From Phytohabitans rumicis (GTDB lineage Bacteria > Actinomycetota > Actinomycetes > Mycobacteriales > Micromonosporaceae): a DNA stretch of 64,000 nt. Where the stretch lies: contig NZ_BLPG01000001.1 in NCBI RefSeq assembly GCF_011764445.1, positions 2,976,001 to 3,040,000 of the forward strand. Direction: 5' to 3'. A model generated the notes under the pieces. That model made no database searches and was not told the DNA's origin. It saw only the letters and a list, made by a program, of their open reading frames with translations. The first letter of the stretch is position 1. Each line of letters starts with the position of its first letter. The translations under genes were made by a program, and so were the position numbers. This document shows positions 46,766-64,000 of the stretch, in pieces.

Positions 46766-49084
46766 CTAAGCCTGACGCATCTCATGCGATGAGTCAACTG
46801 ATCTCACATTTTGAGCGTTTCGCGTTACGTGATCCACCTGACCAGGCCCCGCTTGTCCGGGCCCTGCCTGCACAGGAACTGCGACGGCCCGGGCACCGGG
46901 CGAGGTCGCGGTGTCCAGCCGCGCCTCGAAGTGCTCGGCCGGCACCGGCCAGCCGGACAGGTAGCCCTGGCCGAGGCGGCAGCCGGCCGCGACGACCATC
47001 GCCATCTCCTCCTGCTCGCCCAGCCCTTCGGCGATGACCTCCAGGCCGAACTGGTGACCCAACTCGACGATCACCCGCACCATCGGCTTGACCACGAGCG
47101 AGCGGTCGATCTTGAGGATGTCGACCGGGAGCCGGCGCAGCTGGCCCAGCGACGAGTAGCCCGAGCCGAAGTCGTCGAGCGCGATGCGCACGCCGGTCGC
47201 GCGCAGGTCACCCAGCCGCCGGATCAGCTCTTCGACGTCGGCGGCCATCGCGTGCTCGGTCACCTCCAGGACGAGCCGCTGGGGCGGCACCCGGTGCGCC
47301 CGCAGCGCCTCCTTGACCTGGTCGACGTAGCAGGTCGCGTGCAGCTCACGCGGCGAGACGTTGACCGACACCCACACGTCGTGGCCCTCGGCCAGCCAGC
47401 GGGACAGCTGGTGACACGCCTGGTGCAGCACCCAGGCGCCGAGCTTGTTGATCATCCCGCACTCCTCGGCGACCGGGATGAACTCGTCCGGCCCGACGCT
47501 GCCCAGCACCGGATGGTTCCACCGCAGCAGGGCCTCGGCGCCGACCGGGCGCACCGACGGCAGCATCACCACGGGCTGGTACTGCAGGTGCAGCTCGTCC
47601 CGGTCGATCGCGCCGCGCAGCTCGTGCTCCAGCGTCGTACGCCGGCGCAGCTTCGCGTCGTACCCGACGTCGTAGAGCTCGACCCTGTTCTTGCCGCGCT
47701 GTTTCGCCCAGCGCAACGCCAGATCGGCGTTGCGCAGCAACGCCTTCACGTCCGGGACGGTCGCGCAGCTCGCGAGCCCGATGCTGACCGACAGGAAGAC
47801 CGTGCCGAGCTCCTGCTCGTACGGGCCGCCGAGGACGCCCAGCAGGCGCGTCGCCGCTCGCTTGGCCTCGGCCGGGCGCGCCCACATGAGCACCGCGAAC
47901 TCGTCGCCGCCCAGCCGGGCCGCCACGTCGCCGGGGCGCAGGTTCATCCGGAGGCGCTGGCCCACCTCGACCAGCACCGCGTCGCCGACGTCGTGGCCGC
48001 GCAGATCGTTGACGTTCTTGAAGCCGTCGAGGTCGAGCGCGAGCAGGACGGCGGAAGCCCCGGCCACGTGCTCGTCCTCGAGCGCGGAGAGCAGGCCGCG
48101 CCGGTTGGCCAGCCCGGTCAGCGGGTCGGTGTGCGCCAACTCGCGGAAGTACGCCTCCCGGTCCTGCAGCCGCTCGGCGTACGCCTTGACGTCACGCAGC
48201 GCCAGCCACTGCCGCGCGACCAGGGCGAACCCTTCCAGGCTGCCGGTCACGATGCCCACCAGGTCGAAGTCGCCGCCGCGCACCAGGTGGTAGAGGGCGG
48301 AGGTGGCCATCGCGGCCATCGGGAGGAAGGCGTACGCGCTGCCGCGCTGGGTCACGTCGCCATCGACGGCCGCCTCCTCGTCGTCGACCTCGGGCCGGTC
48401 GGCGCGGCGGGCCGCGTACACCACCAGGCCCAAGGCTGCCGGCAGCGCGATCGCGCTCAGGTCAGCCAGCAGCGTCATGCCCTGGCAGACGCCGCCGGCC
48501 AGGCCGATCCCGGCCGCCGCCGCGGCCGTGACGCCGACCCCGACCGCCACGAGCGGCCGGCGCGGCCGTGGCGCGCGCATAGCCGTAATCGCGCTCACGC
48601 CGAGCGCCAGCGCCGCGACGGCCGCCGGCATGAGCAGCGGCTTGCACCAGTACGGCGTGTGGTCGCCCAGCAGGTGGGTCGGCTTGGACACCAGCACCCA
48701 GCCGACGAACCAGAGCGCCGCCGCGATCACCAGCCCGTCGAGGGTGTGCCGGAGCGCCCCGGCCGGCTTGGGCGCGGCCCCCGGCAGCGTGAGCAGGCCG
48801 AGGAGCAGCAGACCGCAGCTCAGCGCGACCCCGACGGCCAGCAGGCTGCCGAGCGACGTCTTGTCATGCTGGGTGTGCACGACGTGCTGCTGCACGGCCA
48901 GGCTGGCCGCGATCCCGCCGGCGACGGTCACCGCGCCGACGGCGGCCCCGCCGGCGAGCAGCCGGTGGGCACGCCGGGTCGCGCCCGTGCGTCGACGCGC
49001 GGATGCGACCAGCGAACCGGCACAAACCAGTGCGAAAAGCGCGCTGGCCGCCGCAGCGGTCGCCACCACCGAGGGGAGGTGCAC
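46766..49084 (-). CDS. membrane GGDEF-EAL protein (cyclic di-GMP turnover)
   Basis: 772 aa. About eight hydrophobic segments (residues 1-300) form a membrane sensor. A GGDEF domain follows (about 325-480) with TDPLTGLANRRGL and an intact RLGGDEFAV, so diguanylate cyclase activity is possible. The EAL domain (about 495-730) has AEALLRWNHP, LEVTEHAM, ALDDFGSGYSSL and VIAEGLGEQEE, so phosphodiesterase activity is possible. Between LKIDRSLVV and VRVIVELGHQ it seems about a dozen residues shorter than usual EAL domains, which may affect catalysis. GTG start. Divergent from ilvD. An exopolysaccharide locus lies 3 kb away, a common target of cyclic di-GMP. Confidence 0.9.
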   Translation of the reverse strand: MHLPSVVATAAAASALFALVCAGSLVASARRRTGATRRAHRLLAGGAAVGAVTVAGGIAASLAVQQHVVHTQHDKTSLGSLLAVGVALSCGLLLLGLLTLPGAAPKPAGALRHTLDGLVIAAALWFVGWVLVSKPTHLLGDHTPYWCKPLLMPAAVAALALGVSAITAMRAPRPRRPLVAVGVGVTAAAAAGIGLAGGVCQGMTLLADLSAIALPAALGLVVYAARRADRPEVDDEEAAVDGDVTQRGSAYAFLPMAAMATSALYHLVRGGDFDLVGIVTGSLEGFALVARQWLALRDVKAYAERLQDREAYFRELAHTDPLTGLANRRGLLSALEDEHVAGASAVLLALDLDGFKNVNDLRGHDVGDAVLVEVGQRLRMNLRPGDVAARLGGDEFAVLMWARPAEAKRAATRLLGVLGGPYEQELGTVFLSVSIGLASCATVPDVKALLRNADLALRWAKQRGKNRVELYDVGYDAKLRRRTTLEHELRGAIDRDELHLQYQPVVMLPSVRPVGAEALLRWNHPVLGSVGPDEFIPVAEECGMINKLGAWVLHQACHQLSRWLAEGHDVWVSVNVSPRELHATCYVDQVKEALRAHRVPPQRLVLEVTEHAMAADVEELIRRLGDLRATGVRIALDDFGSGYSSLGQLRRLPVDILKIDRSLVVKPMVRVIVELGHQFGLEVIAEGLGEQEEMAMVVAAGCRLGQGYLSGWPVPAEHFEARLDTATSPGARAVAVPVQAGPGQAGPGQVDHVTRNAQNVRSVDSSHEMRQA
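46769..46797 (-). promoter_or_regulatory. ilvBNC promoter inside the 3' end of the GGDEF-EAL gene
   Basis: TTGACT (46792-46797), a 17-bp spacer, CAGGCT (46769-46774), read on the minus strand. Both boxes fall within the last codons of the upstream gene, whose stop is at 46766. Confidence 0.6.
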
Positions 49085-49209: not shown

Positions 49210-51057
49210 ATGCCTGAGCTGCGGAGCAGGACCTCCACGCATGGTCGCACGATGGCCGGCGCGCGCGCCTTGTGGCGGGCCACCGGCATGACCGACGACG
49301 ACTTCGGCAAGCCGATCGTCGCCATCGCCAACAGCTTCACGCAGTTCGTACCCGGGCATGTGCACCTCAAAGACCTCGGCGGCCTGGTCGCCGACTCCGT
49401 GGCCGCGGCCGGCGGCGTCGGGCGCGAGTTCAACACGATCGCCGTCGACGACGGCATCGCGATGGGCCACGGCGGCATGCTCTACTCGCTGCCCAGCCGG
49501 GAGCTGATCGCCGACGCGGTCGAGTACATGGTCAACGCGCACTGCGCCGACGCTCTCGTCTGCATCTCCAACTGCGACAAGATCACGCCGGGCATGCTGA
49601 TCGCCGCGCTGCGGCTGAACATCCCGACGGTCTTCGTCTCCGGCGGCCCCATGGAGGCCGGCAAGACGATCGCCATCGAGGGGATCGTGCACGACAAGAT
49701 CGACCTGATCGACGCGATGATCGCCTCGTCCAACGACGCGGTCACCGACGAGCAGCTCGACGGCATCGAGCGCTCCGCGTGCCCCACCTGCGGCTCCTGC
49801 TCCGGCATGTTCACCGCCAACTCGATGAACTGCCTGACCGAGGCCATCGGCCTCGCGCTGCCCGGCAACGGTTCGACGCTGGCAACCCACGCCGCGCGGC
49901 GCGCGCTCTTCGAGCGGGCCGGCGAGCTGGTCGTCCAGATCGCCAAGCAGTGGTACGAGAACGACGACGCCTCGGTGTTGCCGCGCTCCATCGCGTCGCG
50001 GGACGCCTTCGAGAACGCGGTCGCCCTCGACGTCGCCATGGGCGGCTCCACCAACACGGTCCTGCACCTGCTGGCGGCGGCCCGCGAGGCGGAGCTCGAC
50101 TTCGGCGTGGCCGACATCGACGCGATCTCCCGCCGGGTGCCCTGCCTGTCCAAGGTCGCGCCGAACTCGCCGAAGTACCACATGGAGGACGTGCACCGGG
50201 CCGGCGGCATCCCCGCCATCCTCGGCGAGCTCGACCGGGCCGGGCTGCTGCGCCGCGACGTTCGCGCGGTGCACGCGCCCAACCTCGACGAGTGGCTCGC
50301 GGACTGGGACATCCGCAGCGGTAAGGCCACGCCGGAGGCGATCGAGCTCTTCCACGCGGCGCCCGGCGGCGTGCGCACCACCCAGCCGTTCTCCACCGAA
50401 AACCGGTGGGACCGGCTCGACGTCGACGCCGCGAACGGCTGCATCCGCGACCGGGAGCACGCGTACACCGCCGACGGTGGCCTCGCCATCCTGCACGGCA
50501 ACCTCGCGCCGGACGGCTGCGTGGTCAAGACCGCCGGCGTGCCCGAGGAGGTCTGGCGCTTCGCCGGCCCGGCCCGCGTGTACGAGTCGCAGGAAGACGC
50601 GGTCAGCGGCATCCTCGCCAAGGAGGTGCGGGCCGGCGACGTGCTGGTGATCCGCTACGAGGGCCCCAAGGGCGGGCCGGGCATGCAGGAGATGCTCTAC
50701 CCGACCTCGTTCCTCAAGGGACGCGGGCTCGGGCGCGCCTGCGCGCTGATCACGGACGGCCGGTTCTCCGGTGGCACGTCCGGCCTGTCGATCGGCCACG
50801 TCTCGCCCGAGGCGGCCGGCGGCGGGCTGATCGCCCTGGTCGAAGACGGCGACGAGATCGCCATCGACATCCCGGCCCGGACCCTGTCGCTGAACGTCGC
50901 GCAAGACGTCCTGGACGCGCGCCGGATCGCCCAGGACAAGCGCGACCGCCCGTACACGCCGGTCAACCGCGAGCGCTCCGTGTCGGCGGCGCTCCGCGCG
51001 TACGCCTCCATGGCCACCTCCGCCAGCGACGGCGCCTACCGCCGCGTCCCCGACTAG
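49210..51057 (+). CDS. ilvD: dihydroxy-acid dehydratase
   Basis: 615 aa. Dehydrates 2,3-dihydroxy acids to 2-keto acids in Val and Ile synthesis. Iron-sulfur cysteines lie in [10 protein letters not shown] and [19 protein letters not shown]. Further blocks [27 protein letters not shown] and the C-terminal [14 protein letters not shown] and [21 protein letters not shown] are diagnostic. No attenuator is visible upstream. It is separate from the ilvBNC operon. Confidence 0.96.
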
Positions 51058-51976: not shown

Positions 51977-53005
51977 ATGAAGGTTCTGATCGCCGGCGGT
52001 GCCGGGTTCATCGGCAGCACCGTGGCGTCGGCCTGTCTGGACGAGGCCGGTGCGAGCACGGGCCAACCGATAACGCCCATCGTCCTCGACAACCTCAGTG
52101 CGGGCCGTACGGAGTTCGTCCGTGGCCGGATCTTCTACGAGGGTGACATCGCGGACGCCCGGTTGGTCGACAAGATCTTCGCCGAGCATCCGGAGATCGA
52201 AGCCGTCGTCCACTGCGCCGCGCTCATCGTGGTGCCTCATTCGGTGGCCCAGCCGCTGCTCTACTACCGCGAGAACGTCGCGAAGTCGGTGGCCTTCCTG
52301 GACAGCGTCATCGAGAACGGCTGTGGCCGCGTCCTTTTCAGCTCCTCGGCGTCGGTCTACCAGGCCGGTAGCGACCTCGCCGTAGACGAGACATCACCGA
52401 TCGCACCGACGAGCCCGTACGCCCACGGCAAGGCCATGGTGGAGCAGATCCTCCAGGACTGCGTGCGGGCCTATCCCGTCCGGGTCATCGCGTTGCGCTA
52501 TTTCAACCCGATCGGGGCCGATCCGAAGCTCCGTACGGGTCCGCAGTCCGCCGAGTCCTCCCACGTACTCGGCAGGATGGTGGCTGCGGCGCGCGGCGGC
52601 GAGCCGTTCGCCGTGACGGGCGTGGACTGGCCTACCCGCGACGGGTCGGGAGTTCGGGATTACGTCCACGTCTGGGACCTGGCGCGGGCGCACGTCCAGG
52701 CGCTGCGCCGGTTCGACGATGTCGTGCCGCCCGCCGGGCCGAACCGCTATGCGGCGATCAACCTCGGGACCGGCCGGGGCACCACCGTACGCGAGTTGCT
52801 CGGCGCGTTCGAGGCGGTCATCGGGCGGTCTATCGGCGCCCGGGAAGTGCCCCGGCGTTTCGGGGACTGCGCGGGTGGTTTCAACGACAGTGTGCGCTCG
52901 GGCGAGCTGCTCGGCTGGCGCCCGACCCTGTCGTTGACGGAAGCCATAAGACACGAACTCCAGTGGTCGGCCGTACGGGACGGCCATCAGCTGATACCTC
53001 AATGA
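51977..53005 (+). CDS. galE: UDP-glucose 4-epimerase-like SDR enzyme
   Basis: 342 aa extended short-chain dehydrogenase. NAD motif VLIAGGAGFIGSTVASA; catalytic SSSASVYQ and YAHGK; sugar-binding LRYFNPIGADP and VRDYVHVWDLARAH, as in GalE. It interconverts UDP-glucose and UDP-galactose, or the N-acetyl forms. ATG 51977 is chosen for the Rossmann start, with GAAGGA about eight bases upstream. As the first gene of the locus it probably supplies UDP-Gal or UDP-GalNAc. Confidence 0.88.
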   Translation: MKVLIAGGAGFIGSTVASACLDEAGASTGQPITPIVLDNLSAGRTEFVRGRIFYEGDIADARLVDKIFAEHPEIEAVVHCAALIVVPHSVAQPLLYYRENVAKSVAFLDSVIENGCGRVLFSSSASVYQAGSDLAVDETSPIAPTSPYAHGKAMVEQILQDCVRAYPVRVIALRYFNPIGADPKLRTGPQSAESSHVLGRMVAAARGGEPFAVTGVDWPTRDGSGVRDYVHVWDLARAHVQALRRFDDVVPPAGPNRYAAINLGTGRGTTVRELLGAFEAVIGRSIGAREVPRRFGDCAGGFNDSVRSGELLGWRPTLSLTEAIRHELQWSAVRDGHQLIPQ

Positions 53006-53039
53006 CGGGGCCGCCATGGCCTGGGAGGCGGAAATACTC

Positions 53040-55232
53040 ATGAAGACTCGCGTTTTGGCCGGACGCTTTGCCGCACGCATCGCCGCCGTACTGGTGATGC
53101 TGCTGGTGTGTGTGATGGCGAGCGCCGGAAACCAAGCGGTCGCGAAAAAGGCCCCGCCCGACCCCGGCGGCCTGGTTGCCGCGGGCCAGGGCGGTGTGCT
53201 CGGCGGAGGCAAGCTGAGGCCGACCAAGCCGACGATCCCGAAGGCACTACCGAAGACGAATCTAACCAAGATCCCGATCAAGGATCCGAAGAAGCCTTCG
53301 ACGTCCACTTCCCGCCTGTCCACGAGCGCGGCGGCCGCGGCCGCGGTCGCGGTGGCACCGGAGAAGGTGGGACTGCGCCAACTCATAGTCGCGTTGGATA
53401 GCACCGACTTCGGGCTGGCCACCTGGAAGTCGACGCTGGACCGGATGGGTACGCCGTACGACGTGCTGCTCGCCGCGAGCGAGCCGCTCACGTGGGAGCG
53501 GTTGACCCGCGCCGACGGCGGCGGGCGTTACACCTCGATCCTGCTGTCGAACAACTCGCTGTTGATGTCGGACGGGGCCGGCGGGTTCGTCAGCGCGTTC
53601 GACGCCGACGAGTGGAACCTGCTGTGGCAGTACGAGCGGGACTACAAGGTGCGCCAGGTCTCGCTCTACACCGCCTACGGCACCTTCCCGGAGGACTACT
53701 GCCTGCGGGCCGGCACCGAGGGCGGCGTCGGCGACACACCGATCAACGCCACCTTGAGCACCACCGGACGGCAGCAGTTCGACTACCTGATCCCGACCGT
53801 CCGGGTGCCGATCTCGCTGTCGTATGTCTACTACTCGACGCTGGCGGCCGGCTGCACCGCAACGGCCACCATGAACAGCGGTACGAACACACTCGGCGTG
53901 ATCAGCACGTCCACCGACGGCCGGGAGCGGGCCGCGTTGACGTTCACCTCGAACCAGTACCTGGTGCAGACGTTCCTGCTGGCGTACGGCCTCGTCCGCT
54001 GGGCGACCAAGGGTGTGTTCGTCGGTGAGCGGCGGCACTACCTCGAGGTCGACGTCGACGACTGGTTCAACTACACCGACCACCTCTTCCCCGACGGGCA
54101 CCTGGAGACGGACCCCGGCTTCCGGATGTCGGGCACCGACGCGAACTCGACCAACCAGCAGCAGAACGCGATGCGCTCCCGCTACCCGCGGGCCAACCAG
54201 TTCCAACTGAACGTCCCGTACAACGGCGAGGGCATCCACCGGACCGCGCACGGGTCGTGCACGTCGCTGCTGAGCCCGGATCCGCTGACCAGCTACTCGC
54301 GCTGCCTGCGCAACAACTTCCGGTGGATCAACCACACGTACAGCCATCCGAAGATGAACTTCACGCCGTACGCGGAGAACCTCACCGAGATCCAGCAGAA
54401 TCTCACGGTGGCCCGCCAGCGCGGCTTCACGGTGCCGACCGAGGTGCTGAAGACCGGCGAGTACTCCGGGCTTGGCGTCTACCACCCGGATCCGAACAAC
54501 GACATCGACCCGCCGACCGACCACGGGCTGATGGCGTCCAACGCCGACCTGCTACGGGCGGCCAAGGACGCGGGCGTGAAGTATCTGCACGGCAACATGT
54601 CGTTCCCGTCGCACGTGCCGTCCTGCTTCAACTGCGGCATTTACCACCCGATGGAGCCCAGCCTGCTGCTCGTGCCGGACTGGCCGACGAACATCGCGTA
54701 CCACGTGACGGCGCCGGCCGAGGAAACGCTGTTCTACAACTCGTTCTACGGGCCGAACGGCAAGTTCCCGTTCTGGCCGCGCGACCTCACATACAACGAG
54801 ATCGTCGGCTTCGAATCCGACATCGCGTTGCAGCACGTCATGAGCGGCTCGGTCTACGCGCACACGCTGCACCAGGGCAACCTGCGGCAGTACGCGTCGG
54901 GCAAGAGCCTGACGTTCGACTGGGTCAACGAGATCGCCCGCAAGTACAGCCTCTACTACCAGGTGCCGCTGCAGACTCCGACCTGGCCGAACCTCGCCGC
55001 GTACGTGGCGAACCGGACCAGTCACTTCGCGACCGGCAGCGGCGGCGCGGACGTGGTGTGGGACCGCACCGCGAACACGCTCACGGCCACCTCGCCGGTG
55101 ACCGGCGGGCTGTTCCTCACGGGTGTCCGGGCGACGGGCTTCGCCACGTACGGCACCGACTCGATCTCGTGGGTGACGCTCAGCGCGAACACGCCGCGCA
55201 CCTTCACGCCGGTACCGCGTACCACGGCGTGA
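53040..55232 (+). CDS. secreted polysaccharide deacetylase, Agd3/CE18-like
   Basis: 730 aa. A hydrophobic N-terminal signal or anchor (about 8-35) and a basic Pro-rich linker (to about 100) precede two domains. About 110-330: an alpha/beta region (LRQLIVALDSTDFGLATWKS, TSILLSNNSLLMSD). About 330-640: a deacetylase-type barrel with metal-binding Asp340/Asp341 in EVDVDDWFNYTDHLFPDGH and His432/His436 in INHTYSHPKMN. A C-terminal beta domain closes it (about 650-730). This order resembles fungal Agd3, which removes acetyl groups from galactosaminogalactan; the resemblance is from memory and needs checking. It lies between galE and a PelF-like transferase, so it probably deacetylates the polymer outside the membrane. 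GGAGG about 11 bases before ATG. Confidence 0.72.
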   Translation: MKTRVLAGRFAARIAAVLVMLLVCVMASAGNQAVAKKAPPDPGGLVAAGQGGVLGGGKLRPTKPTIPKALPKTNLTKIPIKDPKKPSTSTSRLSTSAAAAAAVAVAPEKVGLRQLIVALDSTDFGLATWKSTLDRMGTPYDVLLAASEPLTWERLTRADGGGRYTSILLSNNSLLMSDGAGGFVSAFDADEWNLLWQYERDYKVRQVSLYTAYGTFPEDYCLRAGTEGGVGDTPINATLSTTGRQQFDYLIPTVRVPISLSYVYYSTLAAGCTATATMNSGTNTLGVISTSTDGRERAALTFTSNQYLVQTFLLAYGLVRWATKGVFVGERRHYLEVDVDDWFNYTDHLFPDGHLETDPGFRMSGTDANSTNQQQNAMRSRYPRANQFQLNVPYNGEGIHRTAHGSCTSLLSPDPLTSYSRCLRNNFRWINHTYSHPKMNFTPYAENLTEIQQNLTVARQRGFTVPTEVLKTGEYSGLGVYHPDPNNDIDPPTDHGLMASNADLLRAAKDAGVKYLHGNMSFPSHVPSCFNCGIYHPMEPSLLLVPDWPTNIAYHVTAPAEETLFYNSFYGPNGKFPFWPRDLTYNEIVGFESDIALQHVMSGSVYAHTLHQGNLRQYASGKSLTFDWVNEIARKYSLYYQVPLQTPTWPNLAAYVANRTSHFATGSGGADVVWDRTANTLTATSPVTGGLFLTGVRATGFATYGTDSISWVTLSANTPRTFTPVPRTTA

Positions 55233-55260
55233 GTCGGGTTCTGGTCTGAAGGAGGCGGCA

Positions 55261-56841
55261 ATGGCGGTCGGAACCGGCGACGAGGTCGCCACGCGACAGC
55301 TACTCGATGGCGCCGCCGCGGCGGTGGCCACCGGCCGGGAGCTGTCCCAACCAGGGATAGTCATTCCGGCCGGCGGCCACGGCGGGGAAAGGCTCCGCAT
55401 CGCGCTGGTCTCCGAAGGCACGTACCCGTTTCATCTGGGCGGTGTGAGTGTCTGGTGCGATCAGCTCATCCGTGGCATCGAGGAGCACCGGTTCACGGCG
55501 GTGGCGCTCACGGTGACCGGCCAGGAGCTGAGCCTGTGGGAGCAGCCGGAAAACCTCGACGAAGTCATCAACGTGCCGCTGTGGGGGCGGGCGCCCAAGG
55601 CGCCGCGCGGAGCGCGGCAGGGCGTCCCCGGCTGGCGGTTCGGCCAGGCGTACCAGGCGTTCGCGCAGGCGCTGGTCGCGCCGCCGGCGACCGGCCCGGC
55701 GGCCACCCGCCACACGGGTGAGACGTTCGCGCTGGCGCTGCGAGGTCTTTTCGAGTACGCCCAGCGCGCGGACCTGGGAGCGGCGCTGCTCTCGGACCGG
55801 GCACTGACGCAGTTGATGGACGCGTGGCAGGCGGCCGGCGTGGACCGCGCCGCGCACTCCGGCGGCGCCGGCTCGCTTACACTCGCCGAGGCGCTCATGG
55901 CGTCCGACCTCATCGAGCACACGCTCCGGCCGCTGTCCCGGCCACCGCTGGACGTGGACATCTGCCACCTCGCGATGAACGGTCTCTCGGCGCTCGTGGG
56001 ACTGACCAGCAAATGGGCCTGTGGGGCGCGGATCGTGATGTCCGAGCACGGTGTGTACCTGCGCGAGCGGTACCTGAGCATGGTGGACGAGGACGTGCCG
56101 CACGCCGTGAAGGTGTTGCTGCTCAACTTCTTCCGCGCGCTGGCGGTCGCCGCGTACATCTCCGCGGACGTGCTCGCCCCGCACTCCAGCTACAACCGGC
56201 GGTGGGCGCTGTACCACGGCGCCGACGAGGACCGGATGTGGACGATGTACAACGGGATCGACCCGGCCGAGTTTCCGGTGGCCGAGACCGAGCCGGACGT
56301 GCCCACCGTCGTGTTCATGGGCCGGGTCGACCCGATCAAGGATCTGCACACGCTCATCAAGGCGTTCGCGCTCGTCCGGGCCGAGGTACCCAACGCCCGG
56401 CTGCGCATGTTCGGGCCCGTGGCGACCGGCCAGTGGGGCTACTACGACAGCTGCCGCGCGCTGATCGACGAGTTGGGTCTGGCGCACGCCGCCACGTTCG
56501 AGGGCCGGGTCACCCGCCCGACCGAGGCGTACCACGCCGGCCATCTCGTCGTGCTCAGCAGCATCTCCGAGGGCTTCCCGTACACGGTGGTGGAGGCGAT
56601 GGCCACCGGCCGCCCGGTGGTCTGCACGAACGTGGGCGGGGTGGCCGAGGCGGTCGGCGACGCCGGGTTCGTGGTGCCGCCGCGCGACCACCGCGCCATC
56701 GCGGACGGCTGCCTGTCCCTGCTCCTCGACGGCGAGCTGCGCCGCTGGCTCGGCACCGCCGCGCGCGGGCGGGTGCTGAACAGGTTCACCCTCGATCAGT
56801 CGCTCAACGACTACCGCCGGGTCTACCAGGAGCTCTCATGA
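55261..56841 (+). CDS. pelF: PelF-like GT4 glycosyltransferase
   Basis: 526 aa cytosolic transferase. The N-terminal half (DUF3492-like) has SEGTYPFHLGGVSVWCDQLI and, later, MSEHGVYLRERYLSM, hallmarks of PelF. The C-terminal GT-B lobe has VVFMGRVDPIKDLHTLIKAF, SSISEGFPYTVVEAMATGRPVV (the EX7E pair) and TNVGGVAEAV. PelF polymerises amino sugars of the Pel polysaccharide from UDP-sugars. GAAGGAGG lies just upstream of the ATG. Its stop overlaps the next gene by ATGA. Confidence 0.86.
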   Translation: MAVGTGDEVATRQLLDGAAAAVATGRELSQPGIVIPAGGHGGERLRIALVSEGTYPFHLGGVSVWCDQLIRGIEEHRFTAVALTVTGQELSLWEQPENLDEVINVPLWGRAPKAPRGARQGVPGWRFGQAYQAFAQALVAPPATGPAATRHTGETFALALRGLFEYAQRADLGAALLSDRALTQLMDAWQAAGVDRAAHSGGAGSLTLAEALMASDLIEHTLRPLSRPPLDVDICHLAMNGLSALVGLTSKWACGARIVMSEHGVYLRERYLSMVDEDVPHAVKVLLLNFFRALAVAAYISADVLAPHSSYNRRWALYHGADEDRMWTMYNGIDPAEFPVAETEPDVPTVVFMGRVDPIKDLHTLIKAFALVRAEVPNARLRMFGPVATGQWGYYDSCRALIDELGLAHAATFEGRVTRPTEAYHAGHLVVLSSISEGFPYTVVEAMATGRPVVCTNVGGVAEAVGDAGFVVPPRDHRAIADGCLSLLLDGELRRWLGTAARGRVLNRFTLDQSLNDYRRVYQELS

Positions 56842-58241
56842 TCAGCGACCACCCCGTCCACGGCGTGGACCCGGTCGAGGATCTGGCCTCGCGGGTACGC
56901 CCGCTGTGCGGCACCGCGGTGGACGCGTTGCAGGTGGCCGCCGTGCTGGAGAGCGACGGCATGACCGACCGGATCGCCCGGGACGTCTACGGGTACAGCG
57001 ACGTCTTCGTGCTGGCGAGCGAGGTGCACCGCCGTGTACCGCCGGCCGTCGAGGTGCGGAGCGCGGCGCGGCCGCGTACCCGGTGGCAGACCGCCCGCGA
57101 ACTGTCGCACGGCCTGCTGTACGCGCTGCCGAGTGCGGCGTACCCCGCGGTGCTCGGCCTGTTGGGCGTACCCGCTCTCGTGGCCGGCATGGTCTTCGCC
57201 ACCGCGACCGGGTGGGTGTGGGGCATGGGCCTGAGCAGCGTCGCGTACCGGATGCTCGGCAAGGGCCGGCCGGACGCGTCGGTGCTGGTGCTGCGCTGGG
57301 GCGTGGCGCTCGGCGTGGTCGTCGCCGGCGCCGGCGCGGCGCTCCTGGTCCGGGTCGAGCACCTGCCTGCGGGCGTCATCGCGCTCGTGGTCGCGCAGAT
57401 CGGCTTCCAGCTGTCGGTGGGCGTGCTGGTGATGCGGCGGCTGGAGGTCGTGGTGTTCGCGACCATGCTGCCGACGGTCGTGCTGGGCGTGCTGTACATC
57501 GTGCGCGGCCGTCCGTCCACACTGGACGCCGAGGTGGTGTCGGTCGGGATCGTGTCGGTGGGGCTGACCGTGGTCGCCGCCTACGTCACCATGCGGCGGC
57601 CCTCGGGCCGGGTCACCACCGACCTCCCGCCCGCCGTGGCCCGGGAGGTGCTCAGCTCGCTGCCGGTGGCGCTCTACGCCTCGCTGTCCGCCGCCTACCT
57701 GCTCTTCATCGACGTCCGGTTCCTGGAGGCACCGACGGAGCTGGCGATCAGCGCGGCGCCGCTGGTGCTCGCGATGGGCGCGGTGGAATGGCGGTCCCGC
57801 CGGTTCCAGGAGACGGGCGTGAAGCTGCTCCGGCAGATCCGCTACCCCTGGCAGTTCCGCTCCCCGATCTGGGCGGCGTTCGCCCGCGGGGTCGCGGTCA
57901 GCCTGCTGATACCGGGCATGTTCGCCGCCGCGCTGCTGATCGGCTTGGCGGAGCACGATCTGCTGACCCAGCGCGGCGTGCAGGTGACAACCGCGCACGT
58001 CCTGCTCGCCGGGGCGTACTTCACCGGCTTTGTCTTGATCAACCACGGTCGGCTGCCCTGGGTGCTCGGCGTGCTGGGGATGGTGTTCGCCGGGCTCGTG
58101 GCGGCCGTCGCGACCCTCAGCCAGCGCCTCGCGCCGTACGGCGAGGTCCCGATCTTCCTGGCCAGCAACGCGGTGCTACTGGCCCTGCTCGTGGTCGTGC
58201 TGGGCACAAGCGTCAGCACCGTACGGCTCTACCGGTGGTAG
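56838..58241 (+). CDS. polytopic membrane protein, probable polymer transporter (PelG-like position)
   Basis: 467 aa. A soluble N-terminal stretch (about 1-75: DRIARDVYGYSDVFVLASEVHRR) precedes about 11 membrane helices (for example [82 protein letters not shown]). Size and helix count suit a PelG- or flippase-type exporter, and the coupled start after pelF parallels pelF-pelG order. No sequence motif proves this, so the role is inferred from context. Confidence 0.65.
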   Translation: MISDHPVHGVDPVEDLASRVRPLCGTAVDALQVAAVLESDGMTDRIARDVYGYSDVFVLASEVHRRVPPAVEVRSAARPRTRWQTARELSHGLLYALPSAAYPAVLGLLGVPALVAGMVFATATGWVWGMGLSSVAYRMLGKGRPDASVLVLRWGVALGVVVAGAGAALLVRVEHLPAGVIALVVAQIGFQLSVGVLVMRRLEVVVFATMLPTVVLGVLYIVRGRPSTLDAEVVSVGIVSVGLTVVAAYVTMRRPSGRVTTDLPPAVAREVLSSLPVALYASLSAAYLLFIDVRFLEAPTELAISAAPLVLAMGAVEWRSRRFQETGVKLLRQIRYPWQFRSPIWAAFARGVAVSLLIPGMFAAALLIGLAEHDLLTQRGVQVTTAHVLLAGAYFTGFVLINHGRLPWVLGVLGMVFAGLVAAVATLSQRLAPYGEVPIFLASNAVLLALLVVVLGTSVSTVRLYRW

Positions 58242-58262
58242 CGACACGAAGGGGGACAACTC

Positions 58263-58997
58263 ATGCACGTAGTGATTCTTGCCGGAGGTCGGGGCGTACG
58301 GCTGCGCCCGTACACGACGTGCCTGCCGAAGCCACTCGTACCGATCGGCAACGAGTACGCGATCCTCGACATCATCCTGCAACAGCTGCGCGCGTACGGG
58401 TTCCGCTCCGCGACGCTCGCCATCGGGCACCTTGGTTCGCTGATCCAGGCGTTCGTCGGCGACGGCTCCCGCTGGGGCATGACCGTCGACTACGCGGACG
58501 AGGACCAGCCGCTCTCCACGATCGGCCCGCTGTTCAACATCATCGACCAGCTCCCGGAGCACTTCCTGGTCATGAACGGCGACGTACTCACCGATCTCAA
58601 CTATGGCGAGCTGCTCGACACGCACATCGCCTCGGAAGCGCCATTGACCGTGGCGACCTACCGGCGCAGCGTGAAAATCGACTTCGGCTGCCTGGAAACC
58701 AACAACGTCCACGAGATCGTCAGCTTCACCGAGAAGCCGACCCAGTCGTACGCGGTGAGCATGGGTGTCTACGGGCTGTCCGCCAAGACGCTGGCGCCGT
58801 ACCCGAAGGGCATCCCGTTCGGCTTCGACGACCTGGTGCTGGACCTGCTGGCCCGGGGCAGCCACCCGGCCGCCTTCGAGTTCGACGGGTTCTGGCTGGA
58901 CATCGGCCGGCCCGACGACTACGACGAGGCGAACCAGCGGTTCGAGGAGCTGCGTCCCCTGCTGCTGCCCAAGGTCCTCGAAGGCGCTCGCCCATGA
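58263..58997 (+). CDS. sugar nucleotidyltransferase
   Basis: 244 aa. The N-terminal nucleotide motif [26 protein letters not shown] is that of NDP-sugar pyrophosphorylases; Mg-binding [14 protein letters not shown]; later [12 protein letters not shown] and [15 protein letters not shown] as in mannose-1-phosphate guanylyltransferases and related enzymes. It lacks the C-terminal left-handed helix of GlmU. The nucleotide and sugar are not decided. It probably supplies an activated sugar to the locus. Its end overlaps the next ATG by ATGA. Confidence 0.85.
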
Positions 58998-59937
58998 CCA
59001 GGCTGCTCGTGTTCGGCGCGTCCGGCTTCCTGGGCGAGCAGGTCTGCCGGGCGCTGACCGCCGACGAACGGGTCACCCAGGTCATCGCGGCCGGCCGCCG
59101 GTCACCGGCCGTGGGCGTTCCCCGCGTGCAGCACGACCTGGTGACCGGCTCGGCTGGGCAGCTCGCGGACCTGCTCGCCAGCACCCGGGTCGACGCGGTC
59201 GTCAACTGCGCCGGTCGGCTGGCCGGCACGCCCGCCGAGCTGCTCGCCACGAACACCGCCGCGGTCGCGACGCTGATCGAGGCGGTGCAGACGATCGACG
59301 CGCGGCGACCGCCGGAGCGTCCGCTCCGGCTGGTGAGCTTCGGCTCGGCCGCCGAGTACGGCGTGGTCGAGCGCGGCCGGCCGGTGCGCGAGACCGACTG
59401 CGCCCGCCCGGTCAGCGCGTACGGCGTGACGAAGCTTGCCGCCACCCGACTCGTCGAGGTCGCGGCCGCCGGCGGCCGGCTGGACGGGATCGTGCTGCGC
59501 GTGTTCAACCCGGTCGGGCCCGGACTCCCGGCGGAGAACGTGGCCGGCCGGGCGGTGCGGGAGATCCGCGACGCGCTGGCCGAGGGCACCAGCCGGATCC
59601 GGCTGGGCCCGCTGGGCGCCTACCGCGACTTCGTGGACGTCCGGGACGTGGCGGCGGCCGTGGTCGCGGCGGTGTTCGCCGCCCGGCCGGCCGAGGTGGT
59701 GTGCAACATGGGCTCCGGGACGCGGTGCCCACCCGGACGCTGATCCGCCTGCTCGCCGACGCCGCGGGCTACGCCGGCGAGGTGCTGGAGGCGGACCCGC
59801 CATCCGCCAAGTCGCCCGGTGTCGACTGGATCGCCGCCGACCTCACCCACACCACCGAGGTGCTGGGCTGGGCCCCCAGATACGACCTGGCCGCCTCCGC
59901 CGAGGCGACCTGGGTGCACGCGCTCACAACCGTGTGA
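58994..59937 (+). pseudogene. NAD-dependent epimerase/dehydratase, frameshifted near 59722
   Basis: Would encode 314 aa. Rossmann motif LLVFGASGFLGEQVCRAL; catalytic VSFGSAAEYG and SAYGVTKLA; LRVFNPVGPGL and YRDFVDVRDVAAA. Reading frame is lost after VVCNMGSGT: the next bases give a stop at 59743, while VPTRTLIRLLADAAGYAGEV continues in another frame. One G added at about 59722 restores the expected GSGTAVPTRTL. So either a recent frameshift or a missed base. The repaired 3' end overlaps the convergent GH114-like gene by 14 bp. Confidence 0.82.
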
Positions 59938-60619
59938 GCTCCCGGTTGCTGACGAAGCACGGCATGTGGAACTGGCGGGCCCGGCGAACGGCGAACTCGG
60001 TGAGCTCCGCCGTATCCGCGTAGTCCAGGGCGTACAGGTCCACGTCCAGCTCCCGCAGCCGTTCGGCGTACTGCGCGTGCACGGTCAGCGTGTCCGGCGG
60101 CCACGGCGAATACCCGCCATCGTCGGTCCAGCGCACCGAGAACGACTCGAAGAGCACGCCGTCCACCAGTTCGCCCAGGCCGGGCAGCAGCCCGAAGCCC
60201 CGGTTGGCCAGCAGATAGGCGGGGTACGTCTCGGCCCGCAGGCGAGTCATCAGGTCGAGCAGGTGCGGGACCTCATCGGGAAACGTGAGCTCGATGTTGA
60301 GGGTGTCCAGGAACAGGCCGGCGAAGTCGCGACGCAGCATGGTCATGGCCTGGTCGAGGACGTGCGTCACCCAGCCGGGGTCGTCGACGTACACGAAGGC
60401 GCCGCCCCAGTCGGGGTTGTGTTCGGTGCGCTGCCATGGCATCGACGGGCCGGGATCCTCGGTGAGGCTGAGATAGCCCAGCGGCTGCACGTCTCGGTCG
60501 AGCAGCCAGCGCACCTCGTCGGTGGTGTACAGGTCGCCCTGCAGCACGACCCGCCGGTATCCGGCCAGCTTGGCCGCCTGGTCCGCGCCGTAGTAGAAGG
60601 CTATTTCCCCGCCCGCCAT
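59924..60619 (-). CDS. GH114-like TIM-barrel protein without signal peptide
   Basis: 231 aa. It has the look of the endo-alpha-1,4-polygalactosaminidase/TM1410 group: EIAFYYGADQAAKLAGYRRVVLQ at the start, DFAGLFLDTLNIELTFPDE (candidate catalytic Asp105), YLLANRGFGLLPG, and GVLFESFSVRW (candidate Glu158). No signal peptide or membrane segment is seen, so it may act in the cytoplasm or lack its exported part. ATG 60619 has AAGGAG eight bases upstream. It shares the fold with the lipoprotein at 62911-63807 but is shorter and divergent. Confidence 0.68.
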   Translation of the reverse strand: MAGGEIAFYYGADQAAKLAGYRRVVLQGDLYTTDEVRWLLDRDVQPLGYLSLTEDPGPSMPWQRTEHNPDWGGAFVYVDDPGWVTHVLDQAMTMLRRDFAGLFLDTLNIELTFPDEVPHLLDLMTRLRAETYPAYLLANRGFGLLPGLGELVDGVLFESFSVRWTDDGGYSPWPPDTLTVHAQYAERLRELDVDLYALDYADTAELTEFAVRRARQFHMPCFVSNRELTRL

Positions 60620-60630
60620 CGTGGATCTCC

Positions 60631-61587
60631 TTAAGACGTGTTGTCCCGGTACCACTCGAACGTGTGCCGCACGCCCTCTTCCAGCGAGACCTTGGGCTCG
60701 AACCCGGTCAGGGAGCGCAGCTTCGTGATGTCCGGGCAGCGTTTGACCACCGAGCCCGGTGGCGCCGGAAGCAGCTCCGGCGCGGGGGCGAAGGCCGCGG
60801 TGCGGAGCACCAACTGGGCCAGGTCGCCGATCCTCGTCTGTTCGGTGTCGTTGCCGATGTGCACGGTCTGGTCGGCCGCGTGCTCGCTGGCCATCAACCG
60901 GACCATCGCCTCGGTCGCGTCGTCGACGTGGCAGAACGCGCGGTACTGGTCGGAGCCGTACACCCGGAACGGGTTCTCCCGCCGGATGGCCCGCATCGAC
61001 AGTTCGGGGATCACGTGGTCGGTGCCCATCCGCGGCCCGTACACGTTGTGGAACCTGCCCACGACGCACCGCAGGTCCTTGGCGCGGGACGTGTGCAGGA
61101 CGGCGGCCTCGCCCCAGAGCTTGCTCACCGCGTACGCGAACCGCGGCGCGGCCGCGTCCGCCACCAGCAGCGGCACGTCCTCACCGGTCGGCACCGGGGC
61201 CAGCCCCGCGCTCACCGTGCCGGCGTACGTCTCGCTGGTGGACGCGAAGAAGAGGCGCTCGCCCGGGTGCAGCCAGTCCAGCAGGTGTTGCAGCGCAAGC
61301 GTGTTGACCCGCAGCACGCGCGCCGGGTCGCGCTCGACGTTCCGCACGCCGACCACGGCGGCCAGCATGTAGACCTGGTCCCAGCCGTGCGGCAGGCCGG
61401 TGTACGCCTCCGCCGTGGTCAGGTCGGCCGCGTACACGCCCACCAGCGGGCGGATCGCGGCGAACTCGAGGTCGTCCCGCCCGCGCGAGAAGTCGTCCAC
61501 GACGGTCACCGCGTGACCGTCCGCGAGCAGCCGCCGGGTCAGGTGCAGCCCGATGAAGCCGGCTCCGCCGAGTATCAGGATTCTCAT
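60631..61587 (-). CDS. NAD-dependent epimerase/dehydratase
   Basis: 318 aa extended SDR. Rossmann motif ILILGGAGFIGLHLTRRLL; VVDDFSRGRDDLEF; catalytic ASTSETYAG and YAVSKLWGE; FHNVYGPRMGTDHVIPEL and the substrate loop DQYRAFCHVDDATEAMVRL. It resembles UDP-glucuronate decarboxylases and 4-epimerases. After a UDP-sugar dehydrogenase gene a uronate epimerase or decarboxylase would be logical, but this is inference. It lies 11 bp before the GH114-like gene. Confidence 0.85.
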   Translation of the reverse strand: MRILILGGAGFIGLHLTRRLLADGHAVTVVDDFSRGRDDLEFAAIRPLVGVYAADLTTAEAYTGLPHGWDQVYMLAAVVGVRNVERDPARVLRVNTLALQHLLDWLHPGERLFFASTSETYAGTVSAGLAPVPTGEDVPLLVADAAAPRFAYAVSKLWGEAAVLHTSRAKDLRCVVGRFHNVYGPRMGTDHVIPELSMRAIRRENPFRVYGSDQYRAFCHVDDATEAMVRLMASEHAADQTVHIGNDTEQTRIGDLAQLVLRTAAFAPAPELLPAPPGSVVKRCPDITKLRSLTGFEPKVSLEEGVRHTFEWYRDNTS

Positions 61588-61592
61588 CTTCG

Positions 61593-62899
61593 TCACCTCG
61601 CTCCCACGGGTTCGTAGCCGATGCCGGCGTACCGGGCGCCGTGCCGTAGCACCGTCGGCTCGTCGAGGATGCGCCAGGAGTCGTACACCAGGCGGGTGCG
61701 GCCGCCGGCCATCAGGTGGCCCAGGTCGAGCCGCCGGTAGTCGGGGTGGTCGGTGATGACGAGCACCGCGTCCGCGCCGGCGAACCCGGCGTCCACCGGC
61801 ACCGGTTCGCCGCCGTACGCCCGGATCACCTCGTCGCCGACGAGCGGGTCGTGGCCGGTGACCCGCATGCCGGCCGCGCGGAACACCGGCATCATGCCGG
61901 CGATCGGCGTGCCGCGCATGTCGTCGGTGGGCGGCCAGCCCTTGTACGCCCAGCCCAGCACGCACAGCGTCGCCCCGGCGGTGTCGCCCATCAGCTCGAC
62001 CACCCGCTGTGCGACGTGCGCGGGCAGGTCCTCGTTGAGCTCGCGGACCTTGCCGAGCAGGTACGGCTCGTGGCCCCGCTGGCGGGCGCTGTCGATCAGC
62101 AGGTAGGGGTCCTTGGACAGGCAGCCGCCGCCGACGTACCCCGGCTTGGCGATGTCCGGCCGCGGGTAGTCGAGGTTGGTCGCCCGGATCACCTCGAGCG
62201 GGTCCAGGCCGAGCCGCTCGGTGAGCATGGCGATCTCGTTGCCGAACGAGTAGATCAGGTCGGTGTGGCAGTTGTTGGTGAGCTTGACCAGCTCGGCGAC
62301 CTCCATGCTGGACACCGGCACCAGCTCGCGCGCCAACCCGCCGAAGAGGTCCAACCCCAGGCGCAGGCTCTCGTCATCGAGGCCGCCGACGACCTGCGGC
62401 AGCTCGACCAGTTCGCGCAGTGCCTGGCCCTGGATGGTGCGTTCGGGCGCCATCACCAGGTGCGGCTCGACCCCCAGCGGTCCCGCAGCACCGGCAACAC
62501 GATCGCCCGGCTGGTGCCGACCGGCACCGTGCTGCGCACCACGACGAGAACGTCGGGGTCGCAGCGCTCGGCGATGTATTCGGCCGCGGCGGCCAGATTC
62601 TTCAGATTGGGCCGCCGAGTGGCCTCGTCCGTGGGCGTGGACACGCACACGATCGCGGCGTCGACCGGCTCGTCCGGCAGGTCCGGACCGACCAGGATGT
62701 TGCGTCCGACGTGTTCGGCGAACACTTCCGCCACACCCGGCTCGTAGATGTGCGGTTGCCCCTTGGCCAGCGAGTCCAGCACGGCGGTTTGGGTGTCGAC
62801 TCCGTACACGGTGAAGCCCTTGCGGGCCAGGGCCGCGGTCAGGGTGAGGCCGACATAGCCCATCCCGACCACGCCGATACGGTGAAATTCATGGGTCAT
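61593..62899 (-). pseudogene. UDP-glucose/GDP-mannose dehydrogenase family, frameshifted near 62473
   Basis: Would encode 435 aa. N-terminal part: HRIGVVGMGYVGLTLTAAL, VDTQTAVLDSL, CVSTPTDEATRRPNL, VRSTVPVGTS. The frame then breaks after LPVLRDRWG in a run of five G on the minus strand (62471-62475). The continuing frame reads VEPHLVMAPERTIQGQALREL, then ELVKLTNNCHTDLIYSFGNE and the catalytic cysteine loop GGGCLSKDPYLL. Six G would rejoin both parts. It oxidises a UDP-sugar to the uronate. ATG 62899 has GGAGG six bases upstream. Confidence 0.85.
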
Positions 62900-62910
62900 T
62901 CTGGGCCTCC

Positions 62911-63807
62911 CTAGGGTTGTGGACAGGGCGGGTCGACCCGGTCCAGAGCGCGCGTGGTGACATAGCCGGTGAACCGCTCCTCGCGGTAGCGCCGGCACGC
63001 CTCCGCCACGTACGCGGGACGGGTTGCGTAGTCGACGGCGAGCACCACCTTGCCGGCGTCGCGCAGCCGCCGGGTGGCGGTCAGGTTCTCCGCGCAGAAG
63101 TCCTGGGTGCACGGCTCGTCGGTGGCCAGGAAGAACAGCTCCTCCATGCCGATGCCGTCGATCGCCGCGGTGTAGCCGGCGTGGTCCTGCAACTCCGGCG
63201 AGTTCTGCGGGAAGATCCAGAAGTCCGGCTGGGCCTGCTTGGCGTATCGGCTGATGCGGACAATCAGGTCGACCATCTTGGCGCCCAGGCTCTCCCGCGT
63301 CTCGCCCGGGACCAGCGCGAGGTCGATCTCCTCGTACGCCAGCGGCGTGTCCAGGTAGACGCCGTCGAAGCCGGCGGCCAGGGCCTGGTCGACCCGCGGC
63401 CGGACGACGCCGTCCCACCAGCGCTGCTCCCAGTACCGGACGAAGTGCTCCTCCGGCCAGTCCGCCCACCGGTTGAGCATGAGGCCGTCCGACCGCACGC
63501 GTGCCGCCTCGGGCCGGAAGTCCTCGATCGCACCGATCTCGAAGTAGGCCAGCACCCGCTTGCCCGCCCCCCGCACGTCGGCGATCTCCTCGCGGGTGAA
63601 GTATCCGGACCCGGCGTCCTTGGCGAGGTCGATGACGGCGAGGTTCTGCGGTGCGCGGGCGATCGCGTCCAGCCGGCCGTCCGCGTAGCCCTGTAGTTGG
63701 TACACCCAGCTGGTGACCTTGTCGTCGGCCGCCTGCCCGGGATCCGTACAGCCCGGCAGCAGACCCAACATCAGCAGGAGAACGCAGACGATCGGCATCC
63801 GTATCAC
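62911..63807 (-). CDS. GH114-like lipoprotein (endo-alpha-1,4-polygalactosaminidase family)
   Basis: 298 aa. A lipoprotein signal (residues 1-20) ends in the lipobox LLPGC, so Cys20 would be lipidated and the enzyme anchored outside the membrane. The rest is a TIM barrel of the PF03537/GH114 type: VLAYFEIGAIEDFRPE, AAGFDGVYLDTPLAYEEID (candidate catalytic Asp153), WIFPQNSPELQ and DGIGMEELFFLATDEP (candidate Glu222/Glu223). Family enzymes such as fungal Ega3 cut galactosaminoglycan chains. In this locus it could trim or release the polymer. Overlaps the next gene upstream by ATGA. Confidence 0.82.
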   Translation of the reverse strand: MIRMPIVCVLLLMLGLLPGCTDPGQAADDKVTSWVYQLQGYADGRLDAIARAPQNLAVIDLAKDAGSGYFTREEIADVRGAGKRVLAYFEIGAIEDFRPEAARVRSDGLMLNRWADWPEEHFVRYWEQRWWDGVVRPRVDQALAAGFDGVYLDTPLAYEEIDLALVPGETRESLGAKMVDLIVRISRYAKQAQPDFWIFPQNSPELQDHAGYTAAIDGIGMEELFFLATDEPCTQDFCAENLTATRRLRDAGKVVLAVDYATRPAYVAEACRRYREERFTGYVTTRALDRVDPPCPQP

Positions 63808-64000
63808 CCGATCATCCTCGCGATCTCGTCCACCGGCGACAGCAGGACGGTCTCGACGGGCAGATCGGCCAGCACCGACGGGTCGAAGGGCGCGTCGGTC
63901 TCCGTGACGGCGGCCCTGATCTCTTCCAGCCGGCCCCCGCCGAGGACCTCGGTGAGGTGTACGGCGTCGGCCCGCTCGCGCAACGCCACGTGCAGCAGGG
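63804..64000 (-). CDS. C-terminal fragment of an unrecognised protein, cut by window edge
   Basis: The last 65 codons are visible, beginning LLHVALRERADAVHLTEVL and ending VLLSPVDEIARMIG. No motif identifies it. The stop overlaps the GH114 lipoprotein start in an ATGA, so it belongs to the same minus-strand operon of the exopolysaccharide locus. Confidence 0.6.
   Translation of the reverse strand, partial: LLHVALRERADAVHLTEVLGGGRLEEIRAAVTETDAPFDPSVLADLPVETVLLSPVDEIARMIG

Follow-up and report, generated by a model that had tools for sequence, protein, structure and literature searches.

What does the gene cluster at the end of a 64,000-nucleotide stretch of the Phytohabitans rumicis genome (contig NZ_BLPG01000001.1, positions 2,976,001 to 3,040,000; hereafter the window) produce, given that it joins a fungal-type deacetylase to a bacterial Pel-type glycosyltransferase? 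The locus (51977-64000) consists of two converging operons, the last plus-strand gene ending at 59937 and the last minus-strand gene at 59924, and a previous sequence-only reading had assigned it to a Pel/galactosaminogalactan (GAG)-like exopolysaccharide; all the genes that it named are present in that arrangement. The locus is real, conserved and Pel/GAG-like; it is known in outline and represents a coherent new subtype, with a mechanism that is predicted throughout. Gene content, families, folds, synteny and missing residues are observed, and from them we infer, with a probability of roughly 68%, that the locus makes and exports an α-1,4 hexosamine polymer with some of its acetyl groups removed, this inference extending to the substrate, the export and every enzymatic activity.

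Regarding the deacetylase (53040-55232, plus strand), its CE18-type and CBM87 domains matched the Pfam families Agd3_CE (PF25115, 54.5 bits) and CBM87_Agd3 (PF25116, 49.1 bits), both over the curated cut-offs of 27.6, and it aligned with the solved Agd3 (PDB 6nwz) with an E-value of 6.4e-15; its N-terminus is hydrophobic, and the proposal of an Agd3-like secreted deacetylase holds. The chain numbers of 6nwz were converted to the published Agd3 residues with an offset of 122, which fits D377, D378, H510, H514 and H668. By this correspondence, the enzyme keeps the Asp pair of motif CM1 (D340/D341), the HxxxH of CM2 (H432/H436) and the His of CM4 (H611). Tandem pairs of Agd3-type deacetylases occur in six related loci (L009, L013, L014, L015, L020 and L021), and their second copies form one clade, joined by the single copies of L016-L018.

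The adjoining glycosyltransferase (55261-56841, plus strand) is a PelF-type GT4 enzyme and the putative polymerase: it scored 151 bits with the PelF equivalog NF038011 (cut-off 100) and 132.6 bits with DUF3492, as expected from its earlier description as PelF-like. The Aspergillus galactosaminogalactan synthase is, we assume, of GT4 type as well. The window PelF fell inside an 18-row clade (SH-aLRT 99) drawn from loci whose deacetylase lacks the Arg of motif CM3 (non-Arg loci, as opposed to Arg loci), and the PelFs that adjoin PelG formed a separate branch; this tree, like that of the deacetylases below, was a quick one, with SH-aLRT support only and long-branch warnings, and it covers the loci collected before the later family survey.

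As for the polytopic protein (56838-58241, plus strand), it had no match in Pfam or NCBIfam, and the profile of its family (16 sequences) found no PDB sequence. Its AF2 model (pLDDT 85.3) matched MATE, WzxE and MurJ structures in Foldseek (best E 4.2e-5, TM 0.54), which suggests a MOP-type fold of about 12 membrane helices. A profile search of 396 genomes of the phylum placed the family at no fewer than 27 positions in at least 18 genomes; the genome searches scored only some first-look candidates (up to four per genome for this family), so that their counts are lower bounds. A PelF match (PF11997) lay within about 4 kb on the same contig at 26 of the 27 places (paired by eye), the exception being a fragmented genome (G135) with the two genes on separate contigs, and all 18 genomes with the family have such a match. 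PF11997 was matched in 28 genomes, ten of them with no match to the polytopic family, and five of these ten have PelG. PelG was over its cut-off in seven of the 396 genomes, and none of the six with 50 bits or more has the polytopic family; in the window's own genome, PelG (PF16933) had no match. The sequence-only reading had pointed to PelG as the family to compare with; hhalign against four PelG sequences gave no similarity (probability 0.06%), and the candidate of a diverged PelG was dropped, because the sequence tests were negative and the fold was positive for the superfamily only. The proximity to PelF, the absence from the genomes with PelG at 50 bits or more and the null hhalign result taken together, the polytopic protein most likely does PelG's job, with no detectable sequence homology to it. 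The helical domain at its N-terminus is well conserved, and it was through this segment that distant Streptomyces-type relatives were matched; we suggest that PelF possibly docks there. The protein is thereby a candidate for a minimal export partner of PelF that has no cyclic di-GMP receptor.

The Foldseek matches to the flippases WzxE and MurJ would also suit a cell-wall or spore-coat glycopolymer, for which the MOP-fold protein would flip a lipid-linked chain instead of threading a growing polymer, and clusters of the Wzx/Wzy type serve sporangium polysaccharides in Actinoplanes missouriensis, according to the portion of PMC13390465 consulted. However, neither a priming glycosyltransferase nor Wzy or Wzz was found among the locus genes scanned, where PelF is the sole transferase, and such a route is improbable. 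The gsf and imp sporangium clusters of Actinoplanes, as described in the parts of PMC13390465 and PMC12691653 available, do not fit the gene content of the locus and were discarded. A second PelF-like gene (L004:7137-8459, 36% identical) occurs elsewhere in the window's own genome; it is followed by a second match to the N-terminus of the polytopic family, and there is no Agd3-like match in the 16 kb fetched.

The two hydrolases, previously described as GH114-like, are one GH191-type and one GH166-like protein, both of Pel/GAG type. The first (62911-63807, minus strand) scored 273.3 bits with the GH191 structure 9ep5, compared to 24.9 bits with Ega3 and 13.8 bits with FsGH114, and the GH114 label was abandoned for it, even if it also matched the broader Glyco_hydro_114 model of Pfam (PF03537, 115.4 bits). 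It holds Asp and Glu at the catalytic columns of Asp156 and Glu225 of TmGH191 (alignment numbering counted by hand), and its hydrophobic, lipobox-like N-terminus (read by eye) makes it a putative lipoprotein and a putative endo-galactosaminidase. The structure 9ep5 corresponds to Env-GH191 by the PDB title and the column order of Table 1 in PMC12054363; from the part of that article consulted, Env-GH191 is active on isolated Pel and prefers oligosaccharides rich in galactosamine (GalN).

The second hydrolase (59924-60619, minus strand) had no Pfam match at E 5, and its relative in L011 reached 19 bits with GH114, where the cut-off is 27. Its AF2 model (pLDDT 88.8), a TIM barrel, is nearest to the PelA hydrolase (Foldseek, 5tcb, E 4.5e-18, TM 0.80), a 13-sequence profile of its family matched PelA with 90.7 bits, and a conserved Glu of the family aligns with the catalytic Glu column changed in 5tsy (E218A); by profile and fold, the GH114 label gave way here to PelA-hydrolase-like (GH166-like). 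The hydrolase half of pelA, a gene that the sequence-only reading had not seen, is present, but as a separate protein with no hydrophobic N-terminus and no signal peptide seen. By eye, 11 relatives also have no signal-like stretch just before the match; fewer than 30 upstream residues were available in four of them (L005, L016, L020 and L022), and the other seven could have a longer N-terminus.

The gene order is conserved. The deacetylase, PelF, the polytopic protein, the nucleotidyltransferase and a short-chain dehydrogenase/reductase (SDR) stand in a row in 16 of 18 related loci taken from genome contigs, one of the 16 in Meiothermus (Deinococcota); of the other two, L007 has only the deacetylase, and PelF and the polytopic gene are absent from L019. 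Being kept across phyla, this order is, in our judgement, not due to chance. An all-against-all comparison revealed no other common neighbour beyond sets of close relatives, except for SDR/GalE-type matches. PF25115 was found in at least 6 of the 396 phylum genomes and in at least 41 of 240 genomes of the family (35 over the cut-off); in Streptomyces-type genomes, weaker deacetylase homologues, not reported by the PF25115 model, adjoin PelF. In two genomes (G011 and G041), an Agd3-type gene forms a row with PelF and PelG; this connects CE18 with Pel, and the fungal-type deacetylase with PelF-PelG pairs. Near the row that was scanned for such domains (L032 of G011), one gene passes the cut-off for GAF and narrowly misses that for GGDEF.

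As for the sugar nucleotides, GalE (51977-53005, plus strand) is a UDP-hexose 4-epimerase (TIGR01179, 281.9 bits, cut-off 262.3) with a Gly where its best solved relative, 3enk, has Cys; a small residue there presumably admits N-acetylated sugars. At the other end, the locus continues past 64000, as anticipated: the window holds the 3' end (63804-64000, minus strand) of a gene for a GlmS-like glutamine amidotransferase/SIS protein of 1103 amino acids that extends to the window-equivalent position 67115 (SIS 55.1 bits, GATase_6 34.4 bits), and a BTAD regulator comes next. This protein does not reach the glmS cut-off, which two other glmS copies elsewhere in the genome exceed. GalE and the GlmS-like gene (at least 60% identity) are near 2 of 65 compared loci, that of the window and L005 of Micromonospora.

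Between these ends lie four further genes for nucleoside diphosphate (NDP)-sugars: a sugar-1-phosphate nucleotidyltransferase (58263-58997, plus strand; PF00483, 123 bits, and PDB relatives), an SDR-family NDP-sugar enzyme (58994-59937, plus strand; PF01370, 124.3 bits on its first part), a second SDR NDP-sugar enzyme (60631-61587, minus strand), the best solved relatives of which are UDP-glucuronate decarboxylases (4lk3, 126.7 bits), and an NDP-sugar 6-dehydrogenase of the UDP-Glc/UDP-HexNAc type (61593-62899, minus strand; PF03721, 103.9 bits, with PF00984/PF03720). In the related loci, the homologue of the first SDR in L017 had its best PDB match with 2pk3, a GDP-6-deoxy-hexulose reductase (83.8 bits), and that of the dehydrogenase in L011 with 4r16 (189.7 bits), the closest enzymes being a UDP-ManNAcA dehydrogenase and CalS8; these relatives do not single out one sugar.

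From these parts, the following pathway can be proposed. The GlmS-like protein and GalE would help supply a UDP-N-acetylhexosamine (UDP-GalNAc), which the PelF-type enzyme would polymerise in the cytoplasm; the adjoining MOP-fold protein, possibly docking PelF via its conserved N-terminal domain, would export the chain, the role that PelG has elsewhere. Outside, the secreted CBM87/CE18-type enzyme is predicted to remove some of the acetyl groups, and the GH191 lipoprotein would cut deacetylated stretches at the cell surface; inside, the cytoplasmic PelA-hydrolase-like protein may remove or shorten the chains left behind. The nucleotidyltransferase, the two SDRs and the dehydrogenase would supply a further NDP-sugar. 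Overall, the product is probably an amino-sugar polymer akin to Pel and to the fungal polymer, which the cluster would synthesise, export, deacetylate in part and trim, with unusual parts and a chemistry that may differ, and the locus is a defined candidate for cationic amino-sugar matrix polymers in actinomycetes.

Several points weigh against this proposal. In the deacetylase, Asp547 of CM3 takes the place of Agd3 R613, the base-coordinating Arg that Agd3 needs, and Thr609 of CM4 that of M666. Since that Arg is absent, the substrate claim is weakened: a partly deacetylated α-1,4 amino sugar polymer, as originally suggested, is plausible, and it may or may not be plain GalNAc/GalN. The structural match of the polytopic protein to the MOP superfamily is moderate, its family lacks similarity to PelG, and in one genome (G369) the family occurs together with a partial PelG match of 30.9 bits, slightly above the cut-off. 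No GAF/GGDEF gene that could stand for PelD was found among the locus genes scanned, as the sequence-only reading had noted. The GH191 enzyme of T. maritima had neither activity nor binding on GAG, as reported in the same part of PMC12054363. A single glycosyltransferase leaves the retention of four further sugar-nucleotide genes unexplained, two genes of this copy carry frame breaks, and PelF is absent from the fetched stretch in four of the 54 non-Arg loci; in three of the four (L007, L135 and L154) the partner genes are all absent as well.

The missing Arg is shared with most relatives and, with the deacetylase lacking the residue that tunes the catalytic base, offers a natural experiment. 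In the first alignment, the CM3 residue was Asp in 25 of 34 readable rows, Cys in one and Arg in eight, one fragment having no such region; in the 65 compared loci it was Asp in 49, Cys in three, Ala and Gly in one each and Arg in 11, so that the Arg is missing in 54, the window's included. The idea of a charge swap was dropped, and "Arg missing" is the safer wording, because the replacement is mostly but not always Asp. For L030-L033, L086, L087, L090 and L093 the residue was entered by hand from the first alignment; the comparison leaves out L131, L152 and L170, taken for duplicates of earlier loci, whereas the nearly identical loci of Rhodococcus rhodnii/Kibdelosporangium, as well as three that share one genome (G456), each count separately. 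Gene presence means a tblastn identity threshold, and "near" means inside the fetched stretch, as limited by contig ends or flanks. By these definitions, a dehydrogenase homologue (at least 50% identity) is near 47 of the 54 non-Arg loci, a PelA-hydrolase-like gene near 43 and a GH191 homologue (at least 50% identity) near 38, and none of the three is near any of the 11 Arg loci. This contrast is blurred by Arg-type loci L031, L093 and L164, where genes of the GH114/GH191 family occur that are more distant (23-28% identity; 281.6 bits to PF03537 for that of L093), and by L087 and L093, which also have the nucleotidyltransferase and an SDR.

The association with the dehydrogenase speaks for a different polymer, for which the two SDRs, one of them decarboxylase-like, would join the nucleotidyltransferase and the dehydrogenase in making a deoxy sugar, an amino-pentose or a uronic-acid sugar, polymerised by PelF or alternating with hexosamine, the deacetylase having adapted to it; the single glycosyltransferase among the locus genes scanned and the UDP-ManNAcA dehydrogenase, CalS8 and UDP-glucuronate decarboxylases as best PDB relatives of the dehydrogenase/SDR pair point the same way. 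On the other hand, both hydrolases come from families with known Pel/GalN activity, and in a tree of 33 deacetylases the 25 non-Arg and eight Arg rows are parted by one branch (SH-aLRT 100), so the link between Arg loss and dehydrogenase may be a single event. We regard this alternative as rather unlikely, with a chance well above that of the Wzx-like route. A bolder version can be put forward tentatively: non-Arg-type actinobacterial loci would form a distinct PelF-driven class, in which a dedicated NDP-sugar branch of these four enzymes feeds in an unusual sugar, the new MOP-fold exporter with its PelF-docking domain replaces PelG, PelD and PelE, the deacetylase works without the Arg, and a cytoplasmic PelA-type hydrolase polices the chains.

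The frame breaks, one at about 59.7 kb in the SDR gene 58994-59937 and one at about 62.5 kb in the dehydrogenase gene, which is thereby spread over two frames, may reflect assembly error or decay; both copies are intact in the relative L005. Decay of the cluster in this strain, with no product, would account for them, but there are uninterrupted frames for galE, the deacetylase, pelF, the polytopic protein, the nucleotidyltransferase, the SDR at 60631 and both hydrolases, and the same genes are retained in relatives, which makes decay very improbable, the least probable of the alternatives considered here.

How far is such a locus already known? Its layout had been presented as unlike known Pel clusters; however, bacterial agd3 operons with such partners are described in the consulted part of Bamford et al. 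2020 (PMC7229062), Actinobacteria included. There, 30 of 35 species carry their homologues inside or close to carbohydrate operons; every operon has a multi-spanning protein along with a cytoplasmic glycosyltransferase, and GH114 genes are often present. The locus shares with these operons the CE18 homologue, the cytoplasmic glycosyltransferase, the multi-spanning protein and the GH114-type gene(s), so that the core idea of this combination in bacteria is already in print since 2020; CM3 is kept in most of the bacterial homologues described there, whereas the window lacks its Arg. Section 13 of that article mentions neither a dehydrogenase-linked loss of the CM3 Arg nor a MOP fold nor any protein like the PelA hydrolase, and in the literature search, which covered main texts and few subscription journals, no text was found on the missing Arg, the cytoplasmic hydrolase or the MOP-fold partner for loci of this kind. 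New here are the pair of GH191-type and PelA-hydrolase-like proteins, the MOP/MATE-type partner of PelF and the Arg loss that tracks the dehydrogenase.

Compared to the Gram-positive pelDEADAFG operons, as given in the parts of PMC7112168 and PMC13254593 consulted, the locus has in common PelF, a membrane exporter and a separate deacetylase, with PelA-hydrolase-like and galE accessory genes occurring there too; it differs in that no PelD-like gene was seen and there is no PelG homology, in a deacetylase of CE18 and not CE26 type, and in the extra NDP-sugar genes. With the Aspergillus galactosaminogalactan cluster (PMC7229062) it shares the 4-epimerase, the synthase, Agd3 and a GH114-type hydrolase; it differs in the missing catalytic Arg and in that no Sph3 (Spherulin4/GH135) was found among the window genes scanned. 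Spherulin4 (GH135-type) genes lie near PelF in L086, L087 and L090, relatives with an Arg-type deacetylase.

Finally, upstream of galE are ilvD (49210-51057) and a gene for a GGDEF-EAL cyclic di-GMP enzyme (46769-49084), the nearest of its kind to the locus, two genes upstream of galE and beyond ilvD. Neither was found in L005-L022, and control by the GGDEF-EAL gene was dropped as an explanation. Two loci of the Rhodococcus rhodnii NRRL B-16535 record, L013 and L016, share about 90-99% identity in their core proteins with Kibdelosporangium aridum L021 and L017, and the record looks mislabelled or mixed. After the locus, the genes at L003:8854-16768, read by eye from their translations, resemble mannan-type hydrolases and a sugar ABC transporter, and they are probably a separate sugar-use cluster.

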